Source: a virus
Virus record (IMG/VR): IMGVR_UViG_3300048111_000264
Coordinates: 1-22,878 of that record
DNA length: 22,878 nucleotides
Reading direction: 5' to 3' (one strand)
The notes beneath the pieces were generated by a model, which had not been told where the DNA came from, searched no databases, and was given only the letters and a program-made list of their open reading frames with translations. The number at the start of each line of letters is the position of its first letter. The stretch's first letter is position 1. The translations under genes were made by a program, and so were the position numbers. Below are positions 3,034 through 22,878 of this stretch, piece by piece.

Positions 3034-5298
3034 ATGGATTATAAAGAAATCATAGATAGGTTAGTAAGAGAACTCTCATTCAGAGTAGGAATTCCCAATG
3101 TACATAACAAGGAACACCAATCAATCATGTCTGAGATTCTTTCAGAATGGGGTGAGTATGATGTAAAAGAAACTATCTTTGAATTTCTAACTAATGAAGA
3201 TGATACTGAAGGTGAGGATAAAGATTATGCTCATATTGGTAAAGGTTTTTATGTAAAGAAGGGTGATGAGAAAAAAGATGGTGCTAAAAAATACAAGAAG
3301 GATGACAGTGGAAAACTAAAAGCGGTATCTGATTCTGATTATGAAAAAGAAAAGCAAAAACAAGGAGAAGAAGGAGAAGAAGCTGCTAAAGATTCTGAAC
3401 AAAACTCAAGTGGTGATGGAATTTCACCAGAAGAAGAAAAGGAAAAACAAGATTCTATAAAGAAAACTTTTAATACTCCATCTCAAAAAGCACAAAGAAA
3501 AAAAGAAAAAGAAATTGCAGATAAAATCCAAAAAGACAAAGAAGGTGAATCTGAAGAAAAGAAATCAACTCCACAATCTCAACCAAATGTTCTAAAAAGA
3601 GAAAAAAATAAATCTCTTGGTGAAGTTAATAGAGAGTTTTATGAAAAAGAAATTGATATAACTGATGAAGAGTATGAAAAAAATAAACCAGAATCTAACT
3701 CTGATACACCAGTAAAATTACCAGAAGATATTTTTGGTTCACCATCGAAAGTACCAAAAAAATATGCTAAACTAATGGAGAGGTTAGTGAATGCTCGACT
3801 AGTGAATAGTACCACACCTCCAATGACTTCAATGATTGGTGGTTCTGGTGCAGGTAAGATACAAGCTCAAGCTGGTGAAGTAATGTCTATGGTATTCTCT
3901 ACATTGGATGATGAACAATTTGAACAAGTTGTATCTATCATTGAATCTCATAATGAAAAGTTAGAACAAAAAAAGGCAGATGGTTCATCTTATAAACCAC
4001 CAAGATATAAAAAAGGACAAGAACCTATTTTAGATGCAGGTTGGGTAAACTCTTCTAAAGCGGTAAGAGCGGGTATTAGACAAAGATATGATGCTGAGTT
4101 TGGAAAAGGAAATTGGGAAGTAGAAAATGGTGCATGGGATTTAGGTGATGAGGTAGAAGCAATGGGAATGGAAAGTTATTCTCAAAACAAAGGATTCTCT
4201 ACTGATATGTACCTTAGAGTAAAAAACAAAGAAACAGGTGAATCTAAATTAGATGAAGTATCACTTAAAAAAGATTTGGATATATTCCTATCACAACCAT
4301 CAGTAAGTGCAGTTGGTACATGGGCTTTAAGTGAAGAAGAATCTAAAGAGTTAGAACAGGTACAACAAAGAAGAGCTGAACTAAAAGCTAATAAAGAAAA
4401 TACAAAAGGTGAAGGTAAAAAAGAAGATGAAAAGTTAAAGAAAAGAGAACAAGAATTAAAAGAAGAAGGTATGAATAGAGTACCTGATGCAGCTTCTCCA
4501 AAAGTATTTAACGAGAAAATGAGAAGTAGTAATGTTGAATTCTATAATAATGTTTCTTTACAACAACTTACCTTAATGAATAGTATAGATGATTCACCAG
4601 AAGGTATTGCTAAATTATCAAAAGCACTAAATCAAGATAAAAAATATACTGCTGCATTTGTTAAAGTTTTAAAAGGATTAACACATCCAATCAACCGAGA
4701 TGAATTAAGAGATAAAATGATTGAAGCTGGATTTAAAAAACAAAAAACCACTTCAATGTACTTAGATAAGTTTTCTACAATGATGATGAGAACTGGTAAA
4801 TTTTTAGGTGATGAAGAATCAGAAAAGGAACTTGAAAAACATCTAAAAATAGGAAAAGATTTTAATAAAGCATTTGTTGAAAATATGGTAAACGAACCAT
4901 ACAAAAGTGGTATGATGAATACAGTAAGAGAAAAGTTTCCACTTAAATCATTACTTGAAGGAGAAGAGAAGATGTCTCTTGGAGGTGTTAATGCAGACCC
5001 TAAAGTTCTTGAAAGAATATTTGGTACAACCAATTATGATGAAATAGAAGAAAATCTAACAATAGATGGACCAGATGAAAAGGGTGATTATCAATTGGTA
5101 TTTGAAGTAGAGACAAGTGGAGAAAAGATTCCTCTCTCAACTGTTGCACCAAGACAAAGAGGTTTGGGTTATGAACCAGCAGTTAATTTAGAAATGAATC
5201 TACATCCTGCTATGAAAGAAAAACTATATTGTGCCAACGTTGCTGAGGGTAGAGATTTTCCTGAAAAAGAAGAGTATTCTAAGAAATACACTTGCTAG
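3034..5298 (+). CDS. Large charged phage protein, possible PD-(D/E)XK nuclease-like core
   Basis: A 754-residue protein I cannot name. Residues 1-55 are a compact helical segment (RELSFRVGIPN..NKEHQSIMSEIL). Residues 56-230 are a very Lys/Glu-rich, low-complexity linker that includes HIGKGFYVKKGD at 67-78. Residues 240-430 look folded: GSGAGKIQAQAGE at 270-282, then STDMYLRVKNKETGESKLDE at 389-408 and VSLKKDLDIFL. The spacing D391...E408-V-S-L-K412, with a possible helix Glu at 282, resembles the D-x(n)-E-x-SLK variant of PD-(D/E)XK nucleases; this is inference. A second Lys/Glu coiled-coil linker (433-478) leads to a helical C-terminal region (about 490-754). It lies next to fibre-like genes, so a virion or injected protein is equally possible. 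GSGAGKI is not a P-loop, as it lacks the Ser/Thr. Confidence 0.5.
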   Translation: MDYKEIIDRLVRELSFRVGIPNVHNKEHQSIMSEILSEWGEYDVKETIFEFLTNEDDTEGEDKDYAHIGKGFYVKKGDEKKDGAKKYKKDDSGKLKAVSDSDYEKEKQKQGEEGEEAAKDSEQNSSGDGISPEEEKEKQDSIKKTFNTPSQKAQRKKEKEIADKIQKDKEGESEEKKSTPQSQPNVLKREKNKSLGEVNREFYEKEIDITDEEYEKNKPESNSDTPVKLPEDIFGSPSKVPKKYAKLMERLVNARLVNSTTPPMTSMIGGSGAGKIQAQAGEVMSMVFSTLDDEQFEQVVSIIESHNEKLEQKKADGSSYKPPRYKKGQEPILDAGWVNSSKAVRAGIRQRYDAEFGKGNWEVENGAWDLGDEVEAMGMESYSQNKGFSTDMYLRVKNKETGESKLDEVSLKKDLDIFLSQPSVSAVGTWALSEEESKELEQVQQRRAELKANKENTKGEGKKEDEKLKKREQELKEEGMNRVPDAASPKVFNEKMRSSNVEFYNNVSLQQLTLMNSIDDSPEGIAKLSKALNQDKKYTAAFVKVLKGLTHPINRDELRDKMIEAGFKKQKTTSMYLDKFSTMMMRTGKFLGDEESEKELEKHLKIGKDFNKAFVENMVNEPYKSGMMNTVREKFPLKSLLEGEEKMSLGGVNADPKVLERIFGTTNYDEIEENLTIDGPDEKGDYQLVFEVETSGEKIPLSTVAPRQRGLGYEPAVNLEMNLHPAMKEKLYCANVAEGRDFPEKEEYSKKYTC

Positions 5299-5826: not shown

Positions 5827-5857
5827 TTGGATTTCTCGTTTTTTTTTCGTATATTTA
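5827..5857 (+). promoter_or_regulatory. Bacteroidetes-type promoter (TTG-N20-TATATTTA)
   Basis: TTG at 5827-5829, exactly 20 bases, then TATATTTA at 5850-5857, with TTTCG immediately before the -7 box. It matches the Bacteroidetes primary-sigma consensus (TTG, 19-20 bases, TAnnTTTG). It should drive the three small genes 5895-6706. Confidence 0.8.
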
Positions 5858-5894: not shown

Positions 5895-6236
5895 ATGAAT
5901 TACTTAGTAAACCCTTCCAATATCGTATCAAGAGCTCTTGGTATTGATTCTTTCAAACAAATGATTAATGATGAACAAATTCAATTCTCTGAATTGGTTG
6001 ATATTTCAGTACAGATAGCTGAAGAATGGACTAATGATTGGGATGAAGGAGATGGATTTGGTTCTTCTGATGGAACTTATCTTCTAAAAGATTTTATAGA
6101 TACAGTTATTAGTAACTTTACTAATAGTGTTTATAATCAAAGTGGATATCAAACAATATTCAACCCAACTTTATCAGTAACATACAAGTATTCTGAACCA
6201 GAATTAGTATCATTTGAAGATGATGGACAATTTTAA
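5895..6236 (+). CDS. Hypothetical protein, acidic
   Basis: 113 residues, acidic (EEWTNDWDEGDGFGSSDG at 47-64), no signal peptide, no membrane segment and no recognised motif. It is the first gene after the promoter at 5827-5857, with an A-rich leader (ttaaacgaATG). Its place in a small-gene block under a host-type promoter suggests an early protein; the function is unknown. Confidence 0.65.
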   Translation: MNYLVNPSNIVSRALGIDSFKQMINDEQIQFSELVDISVQIAEEWTNDWDEGDGFGSSDGTYLLKDFIDTVISNFTNSVYNQSGYQTIFNPTLSVTYKYSEPELVSFEDDGQF

Positions 6237-17727: not shown

Positions 17728-17928
17728 ATGTCAAAAACCTTATGGTTTTTTAGCAATAGGTTACGAGGCGAATCTCATCCGAGAGCAAAACTTACCTCTG
17801 AACAAGTAATACAAATTAGAGACCTTCATTCCAAGGGGTTCTCTACTAATGTTATTGCTCGAAACTTCAAAGTTTCTACATGGAATGTAGAAGAAATAGT
17901 AAAAAGAAAAACTTGGACACACTTATAA
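17728..17928 (+). CDS. Small helix-turn-helix protein
   Basis: 66 residues. From residue 15, ESHPRAKLTSEQVIQIRDLH leads into SKGFSTNVIARNFKVSTWNVEEIVKRKTW, the 'HPrAKLT..qV..Ir.l...G.s...IA..F.VS...V..I...k.W' pattern. It is the DNA-binding HTH that often accompanies phage HNH endonucleases or stands alone. No nuclease domain is present, so this is either a small regulator or a residue of a homing endonuclease. It follows 17475 by 10 bases behind the leader aatataaaaaatATG. Confidence 0.65.
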   Translation: MSKTLWFFSNRLRGESHPRAKLTSEQVIQIRDLHSKGFSTNVIARNFKVSTWNVEEIVKRKTWTHL

Positions 17929-17940
17929 AACTTAAAAATT

Positions 17941-18594
17941 ATGAATAAATATGATGAAAAAACACTCGAAACTAACTATAACAAGTTTATCGAGGCAATT
18001 AAAAAATCTTTCGAAGGTGAAAGATTAAAAAAACTCTTACATATGTACTCAATGGAAGAATTAGGGCCTAACCTAATGTTATCTCCAGCGAGTGGAAACG
18101 TAAACTACCACAACGCTTATGAAGGTGGGTATATCGACCATGTTATGAATGTAGCTAGAAATTCACTCAGAATGATGAAACTCTACAAAGAAGCAGGTGG
18201 TATTATTGATTTTACACAAGATGAATTATTATTTTCAGCTTTTCATCACGATTTAGGAAAGTTAGGAAGTAAAGGAAAAATTCATTATGTAGATAATCCT
18301 TCTGATTGGCATGTAAAAAATCAAGGTAAGATATATGTTAGTAATTCAGAACTATCATATCTAACTCATACTGATAGAACTTTTTTCTTACTACAAGAAT
18401 ATGGAATCAAATATAATGAAAATGAATACTTTGGAATCAAACTAACTGATGGTATGTATGATGAAGATAATGTAAAATATTTTAAAGTATTTGACCCAAA
18501 AAATTATTTAAAATCAAATATACAATTTATACTCCATTGGGCTGACCATATGAGTACTTGTATTGAAAGAGATATTCAAAACGCTCCGTTTTAA
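17941..18594 (+). CDS. HD-domain phosphohydrolase
   Basis: 217 residues. The HD metal site is complete: H67 (GGYIDHVMNV), H103-D104 (FHHDLGKLG) and D202 (ILHWADHMS). The family hydrolyses phosphate esters, including nucleotides, cyclic nucleotides and (p)ppGpp. The catalytic domain spans most of the protein. The specific substrate is not readable. It lies one base ahead of the asparagine synthetase-like gene and shares its operon. Confidence 0.8.
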   Translation: MNKYDEKTLETNYNKFIEAIKKSFEGERLKKLLHMYSMEELGPNLMLSPASGNVNYHNAYEGGYIDHVMNVARNSLRMMKLYKEAGGIIDFTQDELLFSAFHHDLGKLGSKGKIHYVDNPSDWHVKNQGKIYVSNSELSYLTHTDRTFFLLQEYGIKYNENEYFGIKLTDGMYDEDNVKYFKVFDPKNYLKSNIQFILHWADHMSTCIERDIQNAPF

Positions 18595-18595
18595 T

Positions 18596-20035
18596 ATGTG
18601 TGGAATCATTGGTGGAAATAATTACAACTCATCTTCTATAAAAGATGGGTTGGATAAAATAATTCATAGAGGTAGAGATAACTCAACTATCGAACAAGTT
18701 GGGGATTTCTACTTTGCTCATAATAGATTATCTATACAAGATTTATCAGAAACAGCAAACCAACCATTTTGGAATGAGGATAAGACAGTTTGTTTAGTTT
18801 ATAATGGTGAATTGTGGGGAAGTGAACTTACCGATGAACTTAAGAGTAAAATAACAATACCATTTAGAACAACTTCTGATACTGAGATTATACTTAATTC
18901 TTATTTAGAATTTGGAGTTGATTCATTTAAAGATTTGGATGGTATGTTTTCTTTTTGTATTATTGACACAAGAAATCAAACTACATATCTTGTTAGAGAT
19001 TATATTGGTGAACTTCCATTTTGGTATTCTGTTGATAAAGTAACTAATAAATTGGCATTTTGTTCTGAAAAGAAAGGATTACCTCTTTCGGATATTTACA
19101 GAAAAAGTGTAAAGACTGTTTATCCTGGTACTTATGTTGAATACAATTATAAAACGTTAGAACATGATGTTAAAACTTACTATGAGTTACCAAAAGAAAT
19201 TATAAATGATGATAGAGAAACTATTGTTAAAAGAATCAGAAAAGATTTAGAAGAAGCGGTAAGAGTAAAGATGATTTCAGATGTTCCTATTTGCACACTT
19301 CTAAGTGGAGGAATTGATTCTGTAATAACAACATATCTTTTATCCAAATTATATCCTAAATTAGAAGCATTTGTAGTAACAACGGATGGTGGTAGTGATA
19401 TAAAGTTTGCAAGAATAGCAGCTAAAGAATTTGGTATTAAATTACATGAAATCCATATGACAAATCAAGAAATTATGGATTCAATTGATACTACGTTATA
19501 TGTAACTGAACTGAAAAAATGGCAGAATGTAGGTAGTGCACTTGCAACTATTAAATTAGGTGAAGAAATAAACAAACATGGATTCAAAGTAGTGTTTAGT
19601 GGTGATTTATCTGATGAAATTTGGGGTAGTTATGGAATTGTAACAAGATTCTGTTATACAGAAGAATCATATGATAACGCAAGAAGAAAATTAATAAGGG
19701 AAGTACATAAAGGAAACTTTCCATCACAAAATCAATCTATGATGTGGGGTGGTACTGTTGAAATTAGAACTCCATATTCTTGGAGACCATTTGTAGAGTA
19801 TTGTTTAAATATACCACCTATATATCAAACTGAAAAAGGATTGATGAAACCATTATTAAGAGATGCGTTTAAAGGTGAAATATCAGATGAACTTTTATAT
19901 AGAAAGAAAGTTTGGTTTGCACAAGGAGCAGGAACATCAACTGATATTGAACAAGTTAAAGATACACTAAAAGAAAGATTAGATAATCAATTTCAATATA
20001 AGGATGATTTAAATATTAAAAAGTTTTGGGGTTAA
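18596..20035 (+). CDS. Asparagine synthetase-like glutamine amidotransferase (AsnB family)
   Basis: 479 residues from ATG 18596. An upstream in-frame start at 18563 is rejected because it overlaps the HD gene and would bury the essential Cys2 of MCGIIGG. N-terminal class II glutamine amidotransferase (about 1-195): Cys2 nucleophile, HRGRD (24-28; cellular enzymes have HRGPD), YNGELWG (69-75), TTSDTE (92-97). C-terminal ATP-PPi synthetase: LLSGGIDS (235-242) PP-loop and SGDLSDEIWGSYG in place of the cellular SGEGADELFGGY. The enzyme is expected to use Gln and ATP to amidate a carboxylate; Asp to Asn is the default. The altered second loop leaves room for another acceptor. Confidence 0.85.
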   Translation: MCGIIGGNNYNSSSIKDGLDKIIHRGRDNSTIEQVGDFYFAHNRLSIQDLSETANQPFWNEDKTVCLVYNGELWGSELTDELKSKITIPFRTTSDTEIILNSYLEFGVDSFKDLDGMFSFCIIDTRNQTTYLVRDYIGELPFWYSVDKVTNKLAFCSEKKGLPLSDIYRKSVKTVYPGTYVEYNYKTLEHDVKTYYELPKEIINDDRETIVKRIRKDLEEAVRVKMISDVPICTLLSGGIDSVITTYLLSKLYPKLEAFVVTTDGGSDIKFARIAAKEFGIKLHEIHMTNQEIMDSIDTTLYVTELKKWQNVGSALATIKLGEEINKHGFKVVFSGDLSDEIWGSYGIVTRFCYTEESYDNARRKLIREVHKGNFPSQNQSMMWGGTVEIRTPYSWRPFVEYCLNIPPIYQTEKGLMKPLLRDAFKGEISDELLYRKKVWFAQGAGTSTDIEQVKDTLKERLDNQFQYKDDLNIKKFWG

Positions 20036-20067
20036 ATGTAATTAAAATAAAAGAAGAGGGAGAACAA

Positions 20068-20550
20068 ATGGATAAGGTTATAGAAGAAACTATGGCCATT
20101 ATCGATATGTATCCTGATATCTTTCCACATATGTACAAACAAGGATTTAAACTTGTTGGTAGAATTCAGAAAGGAAACTTAGTTCTACAAGATGGTGTAA
20201 TGATTACATTTACACAATACTTACAAGGTGGTAAATTATCTCGAAACGCAACAACAATAAAGAAACCAAAAGATTTTATTATTCATCAGATTGCATCAGA
20301 CCAAACTCAAAAGGGAGCAACTAAAAAGGTTTTAGATGAATTTGTTGATTATTGTAAATCTAAAGGAGCTGGTAATATATTATTAACTGTTCGAGCTTTC
20401 AACGAAAGGGCTCGTAAGTTCTATGAAAGATATGGATTTAAATACGATTCAGATATTCAATGGAACTCAAAAGAAACAGGTATAATACCAGGTGTAATTT
20501 ATAGGTTACAATTAGAAAAAATAAAAAGTGATAAATTTTTTCAATTTTAG
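20068..20550 (+). CDS. GNAT-family N-acetyltransferase
   Basis: 160 residues from ATG 20068, chosen because GAGGGAGA lies just upstream; a TTG at 20026 overlapping the previous gene is in frame but unlikely. The acetyl-CoA-binding loop lies in HQIASDQTQKGATKKVLDEF (73-92, Q/RxxGxA type). VRAFNERARKFYERYGF (108-124) is the typical GNAT C-terminal motif with the Tyr that acts as acid. It is in the same operon as the amidotransferase. The substrate is unknown: a small molecule, a protein or a modified nucleotide. Confidence 0.8.
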   Translation: MDKVIEETMAIIDMYPDIFPHMYKQGFKLVGRIQKGNLVLQDGVMITFTQYLQGGKLSRNATTIKKPKDFIIHQIASDQTQKGATKKVLDEFVDYCKSKGAGNILLTVRAFNERARKFYERYGFKYDSDIQWNSKETGIIPGVIYRLQLEKIKSDKFFQF

Positions 20551-20551
20551 C

Positions 20552-20582
20552 TTGGATAATTCAAATAAATTTCGTATATTTA
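20552..20582 (+). promoter_or_regulatory. Bacteroidetes-type promoter (TTG-N20-TATATTTA)
   Basis: TTG at 20552-20554, 20 bases, TATATTTA at 20575-20582 with TTTCG before it. It begins immediately after the GNAT stop and drives the nuclease/methyltransferase pair. Confidence 0.85.
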
Positions 20583-20617
20583 CATAGTAAATAAGTTAAA
20601 ACATTAAATAATAAAAT

Positions 20618-22195
20618 ATGAGCAAAAAAGATAATTGGGAAATTTTAAACGAATTAGAAATAGACACAAAATCTGTAAAGGTGGGCCATTTATATGGCGA
20701 AATATCTAACGGCAGATTAGTATCAATACCTGAGTTTTTACAAAGAGCATTATTAACAGATAAGTGGTTTTCAAATGAGTATAAAAACGCAAAAGAGTAT
20801 ATAACATCAGTTTGGGTAGGACAAGGTAAGATTGACTCAATTACAATCGTACCAATTAATCTATTAGTACAAAAAATAAATGAAAAGATAGAAACCGAAT
20901 TTGATGAAATTGTAAGAGAATCTTTAAAAGATGGATTGGCTTTATTAGAAGAATATATAAAAAACGGAGCAAAATCAGCTATATTAGATGGACAATCAAG
21001 GGGGTTTTTAGGATTTCTTGAATATATGAAAGGTACTTTCCCACTTGGTTCAGATTTAGCAAAAAAGATTAAACTAAGAAATAATGGAAAAGCTAAATCT
21101 ATCTTAGCACACACTATATTTACAGAACTACCAACTAAATTACAAGATTTATTTAAAGATAAATTATTAAATGTAAATATTGTAACTAATTTTAGTGATT
21201 TCAATGATGTAATCGATGCATTGGTTAATAAACAAAAAGGTTTCTCTTGGTCTAAATTTCAAATTATAAAACAAAAGAATAGATTTACATCTTTTGTAAA
21301 TTCATTTATTAATTCCTTTAAACCAGTAAAAAATAAAAAAGGAAAGATAGAATGGGATGGTGGAACAAAATACATAGAATTTTATAAAACACTAACAAAG
21401 AATTTAGCTGATAAATTGAAAGTTGATAAAGATGGTCATCAGTTATTTATGTTACAATGTTCTTATCTTTTAAAGTATGGTGCTTGGCCGACTGAATCTG
21501 AATTAAATGAAATTTTTGAATCACCAACGAGAACAATTGGAGAGAGTTATTATAAAAAAGTTATAAATTATTTCTCAGATGACTTTTTCCCATATATTGG
21601 AAAACAAAAAGTTTCAATATCACTTTTAATTAATTATTTAGTTTTTAGAGAAAGTTTGAGTAGAACAAAAATTAATAATCCACTCTCACAAAGAATTCAA
21701 TTCGATAGTGATGTTATAATTAAAGACCAAAAAGAATTAACTGATAGGTTTTATAAATTTGATTTAAAATTATCTAATAAAAAAGTGAATAATCCTCATC
21801 CCGCTTCTTTTGTAAAAATTGATGGTAAGTGGGAAATTCGTAATGAAGGATATAAACACCAAAATTCATCACAGAGTACTGAAACAATAGGAAAAAGAAT
21901 GGAATTATTCTTTGAACATTTTGATTTTGATTCTATGGTAAAAGAAGATTTTTTAACGATTGTTGAAAATAATAAAATGCCTTCAAAAAATACATTATTA
22001 ATAGATAGTGGTTTTTCTGATGTTGATGATAATAAAATTATGATTTCTGACTTACATGAATATGATAGGTCTCATCATGAGTCGAAAGATAATTATGGTA
22101 CTAATCAAAAAGATAATCTATCACTTGAAAAGGCCGGTCCAAATCGTTCAAGGGGTTCAAAAAATATGGAAAAGAAAAAAACCAATGTTGTATAA
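20618..22195 (+). CDS. DUF262 ParB-like + HNH nuclease (GmrSD/SspE-like)
   Basis: 525 residues. The N-terminal DUF262 (ParB/Srx-like) domain is seen in VSIPEFLQRALLTDKW (35-50), WVGQGKIDSITIV (66-78) and AILDGQSRGFLGFLE (121-135), the DGQQR-type motif that in GmrS and SspE is tied to NTP use. NKQKGFSWSKFQI (about 208-220) fits the 'lN.G...l' element. A long helical middle region (about 230-440) follows. The C-terminus has HEYDRSHHES (480-489) with N500 and NRSRGSK (509-515), an HNH layout (H...N...NR.kG). Such proteins cut modified or foreign DNA in bacterial defence. Here a phage carries one next to a methyltransferase-like gene. The HNH assignment is by motif spacing only. Confidence 0.7.
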   Translation: MSKKDNWEILNELEIDTKSVKVGHLYGEISNGRLVSIPEFLQRALLTDKWFSNEYKNAKEYITSVWVGQGKIDSITIVPINLLVQKINEKIETEFDEIVRESLKDGLALLEEYIKNGAKSAILDGQSRGFLGFLEYMKGTFPLGSDLAKKIKLRNNGKAKSILAHTIFTELPTKLQDLFKDKLLNVNIVTNFSDFNDVIDALVNKQKGFSWSKFQIIKQKNRFTSFVNSFINSFKPVKNKKGKIEWDGGTKYIEFYKTLTKNLADKLKVDKDGHQLFMLQCSYLLKYGAWPTESELNEIFESPTRTIGESYYKKVINYFSDDFFPYIGKQKVSISLLINYLVFRESLSRTKINNPLSQRIQFDSDVIIKDQKELTDRFYKFDLKLSNKKVNNPHPASFVKIDGKWEIRNEGYKHQNSSQSTETIGKRMELFFEHFDFDSMVKEDFLTIVENNKMPSKNTLLIDSGFSDVDDNKIMISDLHEYDRSHHESKDNYGTNQKDNLSLEKAGPNRSRGSKNMEKKKTNVV

Positions 22196-22199
22196 ATAA

Positions 22200-22878
22200 A
22201 TGACAAACGCAGAAGATATATTAGCAAAATATGAGAAGGGAACTTACGAAGGTGAGTTCCCTACCATATCGCCAGAGGATTGGGAAACTTTAAAAGAGTC
22301 ATATCCCAAAGACCAAGTAAAGGAAATGTTGGCTGATTTGTTTATGAAATATCCAATACCATATGCAGATATCACCGAAGAGGATGCTTATAATGATTAC
22401 CTTAAATTAAAAGGTTTTAGATGGAGTGAGTATCTAAAAGAAGGTGAATGGTTTCCACGAAAAGCAGCTGAATCTAAGTATCCACTAACATATGATGGAA
22501 AACAACAATACTTTTCTCGTATCAATACAGGTAACAAAGCATCTAATTACTTCCAACAACATAACAGATGGAGTGTAGATGGTTCGGTTTCACCGGGCCC
22601 AAAAAGAACTTGGGAAACAAAATCATTTATGAAATCACTAATGGGTGCAGCTTATTCTTTAAAGTTACCACAAGTTGGTAAGAAAGAATTAAGAACAATG
22701 ATTGGGTTGAGAAAATACATATGTGCTCAATTCAAACCAAATGTAGCTAAAATGTTCTATGATATGAATAATGCTAAGACCGTACTTGATTTCTCAATGG
22801 GGTGGGGTGATAGATTAGCAGGAGCGTTTAGTAGTGAAACAGTTGAACATTATGTAGGGTTAGACCCTCGTAAAGAAA
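22200..22878 (+). CDS. SAM-dependent methyltransferase-like protein, 3' end outside window
   Basis: 226 codons visible and open at the right edge. ATG 22200 lies four bases after the nuclease stop. Residues 1-190 carry no motif I can name, though FSRINTGNKASNYFQQHNRW (105-124) suggests a nucleic-acid-handling segment. VLDFSMGWGDRLAGAF (195-210) followed by VEHYVGLDPRKE (215-226) is a Rossmann SAM-binding motif I with the acidic end of strand 2 (D222). The 'D.s.GWGDRL...yiG.DP' pattern is known from large-virus and phage DNA methyltransferases. The catalytic motif (for example (D/N)PPY) would lie beyond the window, so base and atom specificity cannot be stated. Confidence 0.7.
   Translation, partial: MTNAEDILAKYEKGTYEGEFPTISPEDWETLKESYPKDQVKEMLADLFMKYPIPYADITEEDAYNDYLKLKGFRWSEYLKEGEWFPRKAAESKYPLTYDGKQQYFSRINTGNKASNYFQQHNRWSVDGSVSPGPKRTWETKSFMKSLMGAAYSLKLPQVGKKELRTMIGLRKYICAQFKPNVAKMFYDMNNAKTVLDFSMGWGDRLAGAFSSETVEHYVGLDPRKE

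Follow-up and report, generated by a model that had tools for sequence, protein, structure and literature searches.

Introduction

Bacteria are known to use enzymes of the DUF262-HNH type as weapons against phages. The DUF262 domain is defined by the motif DGQQR (PMC4619093), and GmrSD and BrxU, in which it is found together with HNH/DUF1524, are modification dependent; the DUF262-HNH enzymes studied mostly sense a modification and not its absence (PMC10952713). Chloroviruses and marseilleviruses carry restriction-modification systems, and the marseillevirus enzymes can cut the DNA of related viruses that do not possess the system, for which a role in co-infection exclusion has been proposed (PMC7253447). 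Homing nucleases, too, can serve in phage-phage competition (PMC11620839).

A literature search, conducted largely without subscription journals, revealed no named phage system with the layout described here. The DNA analyzed is a virus record of 22,878 bp, hereafter the window. Drawing on the precedent of the chlorovirus and marseillevirus systems (PMC7253447), we read the locus at its end, at just under even odds (a probability of about 0.48), as an allele of a restriction-modification-like cassette, variable and virus-borne, whose target would be other DNA present in the infected cell.

Gene content of the window

The window, which is probably a piece of a bigger genome, contains genes for a recA-type UvsX, a 5'-3' exonuclease, a replicative helicase-like protein, ribonucleotide reductase, and thioredoxin. 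This gene content, along with promoters of the form TTG-N-TAnnTTTG, suggests that this marine phage is T4-like and that its host probably belongs to the Bacteroidota. Positions 1112 to 1759 encode a protein of the DNA/RNA non-specific endonuclease family (PF01223, E = 2.5e-17). Its signal peptide, MKLLKLIFFTFLLVGCS, is lipoprotein-like, which is unusual in a phage, and the enzyme might be active beyond the cytoplasm. A DNA polymerase A-like protein is encoded at positions 3 to 1076 (PF00476, E = 2.8e-05, below the cut-off). In related phages, whose loci are given here with L numbers, a DNA polymerase gene (PHROG 262) follows right after the methyltransferase gene described below, for example at 7270-9783 of L008, and the lineage may have two polymerases. 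An asnB-like glutamine amidotransferase gene and a GNAT gene (18563-20550) adjoin the methyltransferase region of the window and recall DNA hypermodification clusters, as does an ACC-deaminase-like gene that adjoins the methyltransferase in L008 (5159-6004).

A DUF262-like gene precedes a methyltransferase gene

The preliminary description of this DNA, made from its letters, had placed two adjoining genes under one promoter, and both genes were found at these positions. Gene A (20618-22195) and gene B (22200 to the window end at 22878) lie on the plus strand, separated by 4 bases. A putative Bacteroidota-type promoter-like element, TTG-N20-TATATTTAC (20552-20583; TTG-N20-TATATTT at 20552-20581), is located 66 bp upstream of gene A on the same strand. 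The block TTGGA...TTCGTATATTT recurs 49-68 bp ahead of the window genes at 5895, 7545, 11307, and 17475; occurring at 5827, 7496, 11255, 17423, and 20552, it is a candidate common promoter of this phage.

Gene A encodes a protein of 525 amino acids with the DUF262-type N-terminal signature IPEFLQR ... ILDGQSR. The motif IPEFLQR (residues 37-43; 20726-20746, plus strand) fits the 'P..QR' of DUF262, and DGQSR (residues 124-128; 20987-21001, plus strand) is a variant of the NTP-binding DGQQR. Among 690 open reading frames (ORFs), the combined signature P..QR...DGQ.R was confined to proteins of the DUF262-HNH family and gene A, with none expected from shuffling, so that a DUF262-like N-terminus is well supported by the sequence. 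The C-terminus contains an HNH-like tail, H480-EYDR ... N500-L ... N509-RSR (22055-22153, plus strand), noted by eye as a candidate metal site. A similar tail occurs in L098; in the 690-ORF test, however, the pattern HxxDR...NL...N was by itself at chance level (1 expected). Gene A gave no match at E < 1 in Pfam, PADLOC, or NCBIfam, including the Pfam models for DUF262 (PF03235), HNH, and DUF1524, and its matches in PHROGs were at chance level; neither a nuclease nor a homing-endonuclease family was matched in Pfam, PHROGs, or NCBIfam. The DUF262-HNH assignment in the preliminary description is less solid than the methyltransferase identity of gene B (see below): the signature supports its DUF262 part, and the HNH-like C-terminus is weak. 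We suspect that the C-terminus is a nuclease, and this suspicion is strengthened by the nuclease-like genes that occupy the same site in other phages.

The only relative of gene A among viral contigs, GTDB genome contigs, INPHARED phages, and PLSDB plasmids is a partial one in L002, with 86% identity over 107 amino acids and a Ka/Ks ratio of ~0.45. Since the alignment consisted of these two sequences, the AlphaFold model of gene A was of low confidence (pLDDT 32).

Gene B encodes the N-terminal 226 amino acids of a conserved phage SAM methyltransferase of ~410 amino acids, which is cut by the contig end. Its relatives were found at 80 loci, with identities of 61-93%. The SAM-binding motif I, VLDFSMGWGDRLAG (22782-22823, plus strand), contains residues D197, G201, W202, G203, D204, and R205, which were invariant in 47 relatives. 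The catalytic motif beyond the contig end, which had been left to be read from a longer sequence, was found in the full-length relatives: their motif I is DFSMGWGDRLAG and their motif IV is FTSPPYF. The L003 member of the family was modeled with a pLDDT of 89 from 47 relatives. The Pfam family N6_N4_Mtase was matched below the cut-off (E = 4.6e-4), and the PHROGs matches are phage DNA methyltransferases. In Foldseek searches, the whole protein matched proteins of giant viruses that carry the annotation DNA cytosine-N4 or type I methyltransferase; the matches in the PDB were generic methyltransferases, which do not fix the substrate. Taken together, family matches and predicted folds firmly support the methyltransferase initially proposed and suggest that gene B is likely a DNA base methyltransferase. 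An enzyme acting on RNA or a small molecule was also considered, and the SPPYF motif, the viral DNA-methyltransferase folds, and the replacement of the gene by DNA methylases in L094 (see below) make it less probable.

Distant homologues of gene B are present in Bacteroides and Vibrio phages; the Vibrio phage region has no nuclease annotated next to the homologue, and the Bacteroides phage region contains only hypothetical proteins. Many relatives harbor methyltransferase paralogues of ~405 and ~545 amino acids, both in tandem and at a distance (L003, 6001-8432; L047, 5950-8384; L008, 10582-12216), and these phages may therefore have two or three DNA methyltransferases.

The site between the GNAT gene and the methyltransferase gene is variable

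The left neighbor of gene A is a conserved gene for a GNAT-like acetyltransferase (20026-20550, plus strand; PF00583, E = 6.7e-07). Starting from this gene, we inspected those contigs of the window's clade in which the whole site is covered. Its borders, the GNAT gene and the methyltransferase or polB gene, are constant, and between them lie at least six unrelated nuclease-like families of the DUF262/ParB type. Family 1 comprises gene A and L002. Family 2 (L016/L018/L019, L011, L087, and L088) combines DUF262 with a zinc-type HNH and is supported by Pfam. The remaining families were assigned by motif, as Pfam showed no nuclease or ParB domain in them: family 3 is ParB-like (L017, L099, and L100), family 4 has NGQHR and an HxxDR tail (L098 and L093), family 6 has an HNH-like tail (L105), and family 7 has a PD-(D/E)XK-like EAKTF and a ParB-like GHTR motif (L094). 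Profile and sequence comparisons of gene A with the other families gave no match, and they were therefore counted as separate. The neighbor in L124 exceeds the Pfam cut-offs for both GmrSD_N (PF03235) and HNH, and PF03235 was matched below the cut-off in L016 and L180. The distance between nuclease and methyltransferase genes is 3-13 bp in L098, L102, L103, L096, L099, and L105.

Two cases illustrate the exchange at this site. L093 and the window share 99.8% identity across 4,842 bp that end at the start codon of the nuclease gene, beyond which L093 carries family 4. In L094, the usual methyltransferase is missing and two classical N6_N4 DNA methylases (E ~1e-42) occupy its place. The promoter-like element ahead of the site is retained in relatives although the nuclease gene downstream differs.

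In more distant phages (L031 and L043-L070), the GNAT gene is followed directly by the methyltransferase gene, and L034/L035 have a homing-type GIY-YIG gene at the site. Alleles with and without a nuclease gene are thus present at one site, as is typical of homing endonucleases. One may consequently ask whether the site is a selfish locus, favored by free-standing endonucleases that spread by cutting the nuclease-less allele, with harm to rivals as a side effect. The empty alleles, the GIY-YIG gene, and the HNH-endonuclease-like HTH fragments scattered nearby (17728-17928 of the window; L094, L105, and L011) are in line with this idea, and homing nucleases can themselves act in competition between phages (PMC11620839). 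Several observations, however, make it quite unlikely: several unrelated DUF262/ParB-type families occupy varied positions around the methyltransferase, unlike the homing to one target, and the nuclease start codon and the upstream promoter-like element survive the allele swap. Furthermore, to our knowledge, homing endonucleases typically do not contain DUF262 or ParB domains.

The HTH fragment is a mini-gene of 66 amino acids that resembles the C-terminal part of HNH endonucleases (PHROG E = 9e-09) and occurs at varied positions in related phages (window, 17728-17928; L094, between nuclease and methyltransferase; L011, ~4120-4294; L095 and L105, 4311-4541), as if it were mobile or a homing-endonuclease remnant. 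Further proteins encoded near the methyltransferase have a possible GIY-YIG-like start and a ParB-like GGNHT/GDGNHT motif, with no match to a Pfam nuclease family (L116, 4572-5855; L167, 2470-3849), or are proteins of ~600 amino acids with no Pfam match that by eye appear GHKL-ATPase-like and nuclease-like (L003, 3056-4840; L010, 4037-5845).

Nuclease genes are repeatedly associated with the methyltransferase

To quantify the association, we used 50 whole records selected by the methyltransferase, totaling 3.04 Mb. All eight matches of the family 2 DUF262-HNH profile were located less than 2 kb from the methyltransferase; the chance product for this proximity is 9e-8 for all eight and ~8e-5 once they are collapsed to five lineages. 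A search of 40 records with PF03235 gave four matches, three of them at the slot between the GNAT and methyltransferase genes, and both matches of the ParB-type family 3 were at the slot. The family 2 profile found no relative in genome contigs. The gene order varies, with the DUF262-HNH gene located upstream, downstream (L122-L124), or one gene off (L150, L160, and L166), and in L180 it lies beside a methyltransferase of 50% identity. The proposed link had been staked on the two genes not being rare neighbors in relatives, and DUF262-HNH or ParB-type nucleases do recur there in many lineages and several gene orders. In a tree of 49 methyltransferases, the label for a DUF262-HNH neighbor requires nine changes and is scattered to the same extent as shuffled labels; the association was therefore gained or lost repeatedly.

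Most methyltransferase loci do not have an adjoining nuclease gene, and L092, which has a family 2 relative, contains no such methyltransferase in its 38.7-kb record. This patchiness bears on a further explanation, namely, that the nuclease is directed at the host chromosome, which is unmethylated, and degrades it to obtain nucleotides or to shut down the host, with the methyltransferase as a shield for phage DNA. Such a role has been proposed for chloroviruses (PMC7253447), and gene A is near genes for ribonucleotide reductase, thioredoxin, and DNA polymerase. The nuclease is nevertheless exchanged rapidly among near-identical phages, and many relatives lack it, which fits variable opponents better than a steady supply, and we regard host degradation as very improbable.

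Nuclease and methyltransferase are not inherited as strictly cognate pairs. The family 2 nucleases of L088 and L011 are 95% identical, whereas their methyltransferases are ~70% identical and belong to different allele groups; family 3 (L017 and L099) is likewise found beside methyltransferases of different groups, so that both families occur with allele groups A and B. This leaves two options: the different methyltransferase alleles may recognize a common site, or the nuclease may be independent of this mark. An alternative explanation is a type IV-like weapon, in which gene A senses a modified base in the DNA of rival phages and cuts, as GmrSD and BrxU do, while the methyltransferase has a housekeeping role and the linkage reflects a common insertion site. 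The characterized GmrSD and BrxU depend on modification (PMC10952713), one nuclease occurs with different methyltransferase alleles, the methyltransferase is frequently present without a nuclease, and rivals may differ in modification since these phages carry several further methyltransferases. The linkage, however, tracks the methyltransferase more than a single site, given that the DUF262-HNH gene may be upstream, downstream, or one gene off, and in L094 the change of nuclease coincides with a change of methyltransferase. On balance, we consider this explanation unlikely, although it is the strongest of the alternatives.

The L093 exchange and the mixed pairings also contradict a fixed two-gene unit: the methyltransferase is core and often alone, and the nuclease is exchanged. 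The preliminary interpretation is supported in part.

Discussion

The restriction-modification-like reading that we prefer is favored by the change of slot content between constant borders, the nuclease switch in L093, the eight of eight proximity, the two family 3 matches at the slot, the nine changes on the methyltransferase tree, the Pfam matches of the L124 neighbor, the fold matches of gene B, and the double methylase replacement in L094; moreover, nuclease and DNA methyltransferase genes adjoin, as in a Type II-like system. Against it are the noncognate pairing, the majority of methyltransferase loci without an adjoining nuclease, the tendency of studied DUF262-HNH enzymes to sense a modification and not its absence (PMC10952713), L092, and a nuclease domain in gene A that is a candidate only. 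In the mechanism proposed, the resident methyltransferase would mark bases of the phage DNA, probably at an exocyclic amine because of its SPPY motif. The exchangeable neighbor would be an NTP-binding DUF262/ParB-type sensor fused to a nuclease, which would attack DNA that does not bear the phage's own mark, be it of co-infecting phages, plasmids, or the host chromosome, and rivalry between related phages would drive the replacement of the nuclease. The gene order, the slot, the repeated independent association, and the allele replacement are observations; DNA as the substrate of gene B, DNA cleavage by gene A, control of this cleavage by methylation, and rivals as its target are inferences.

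As a more far-reaching and tentative possibility, marine T4-like phages of Bacteroidota could maintain a dedicated weapon slot, in which a core methyltransferase provides self-identity and the nuclease, drawn from many unrelated DUF262/ParB-sensor types, can be inserted and replaced as a whole even among nearly identical genomes; this would be a modular self/non-self DNA discrimination in lytic phages and not in bacteria. Here, it is lytic-type phages that repeatedly gain DUF262-HNH genes next to a methyltransferase of their own, and these genes change even where the genomes are otherwise nearly identical. Should the pair function in the proposed way, such phages would themselves discriminate between self and non-self DNA, probably in competition with other phages, and the slot would offer a ready list of uncharacterized nucleases.

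Comparison with known systems

Gene A resembles the type IV enzymes GmrSD and BrxU (DUF262 plus DUF1524-HNH) in that it is a single chain with a DUF262-like N-terminus containing DGQxR and an HNH-like C-terminus, and its slot relatives match PF03235 and HNH models. It differs from them in being phage-borne and next to a DNA methyltransferase, in matching neither PF03235 nor DUF1524, for which the GmrSD DUF1524/HNH criteria are (E/D)H(I/L/V)xPQ and NLxLLxxxN, and in having DGQSR instead of DGQQR. SspE of the phosphorothioate-sensing Ssp system likewise has a DUF262 sensor, an HNH-type nuclease, and a proposed control by a self-mark; here, however, the neighbor belongs to a base methyltransferase family, and no recognizable Ssp gene (sspBCD) was among the annotated neighbors examined. 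Free-standing homing endonucleases, such as the weaponized gp210 of PhiPA3, are also accessory nucleases inserted next to conserved replication genes, and alleles that lack them exist; gene A, by contrast, has no match to their families, and its ParB/DUF262 domain and methyltransferase linkage are foreign to that class. The restriction-modification systems of chloroviruses and marseilleviruses share with this locus a viral methyltransferase beside a nuclease and a proposed exclusion of co-infecting viruses (PMC7253447). In contrast to these, the locus described here belongs to a tailed phage, its nuclease is of the DUF262/ParB sensor type, and this nuclease is swapped between near-identical genomes while the methyltransferase is core.
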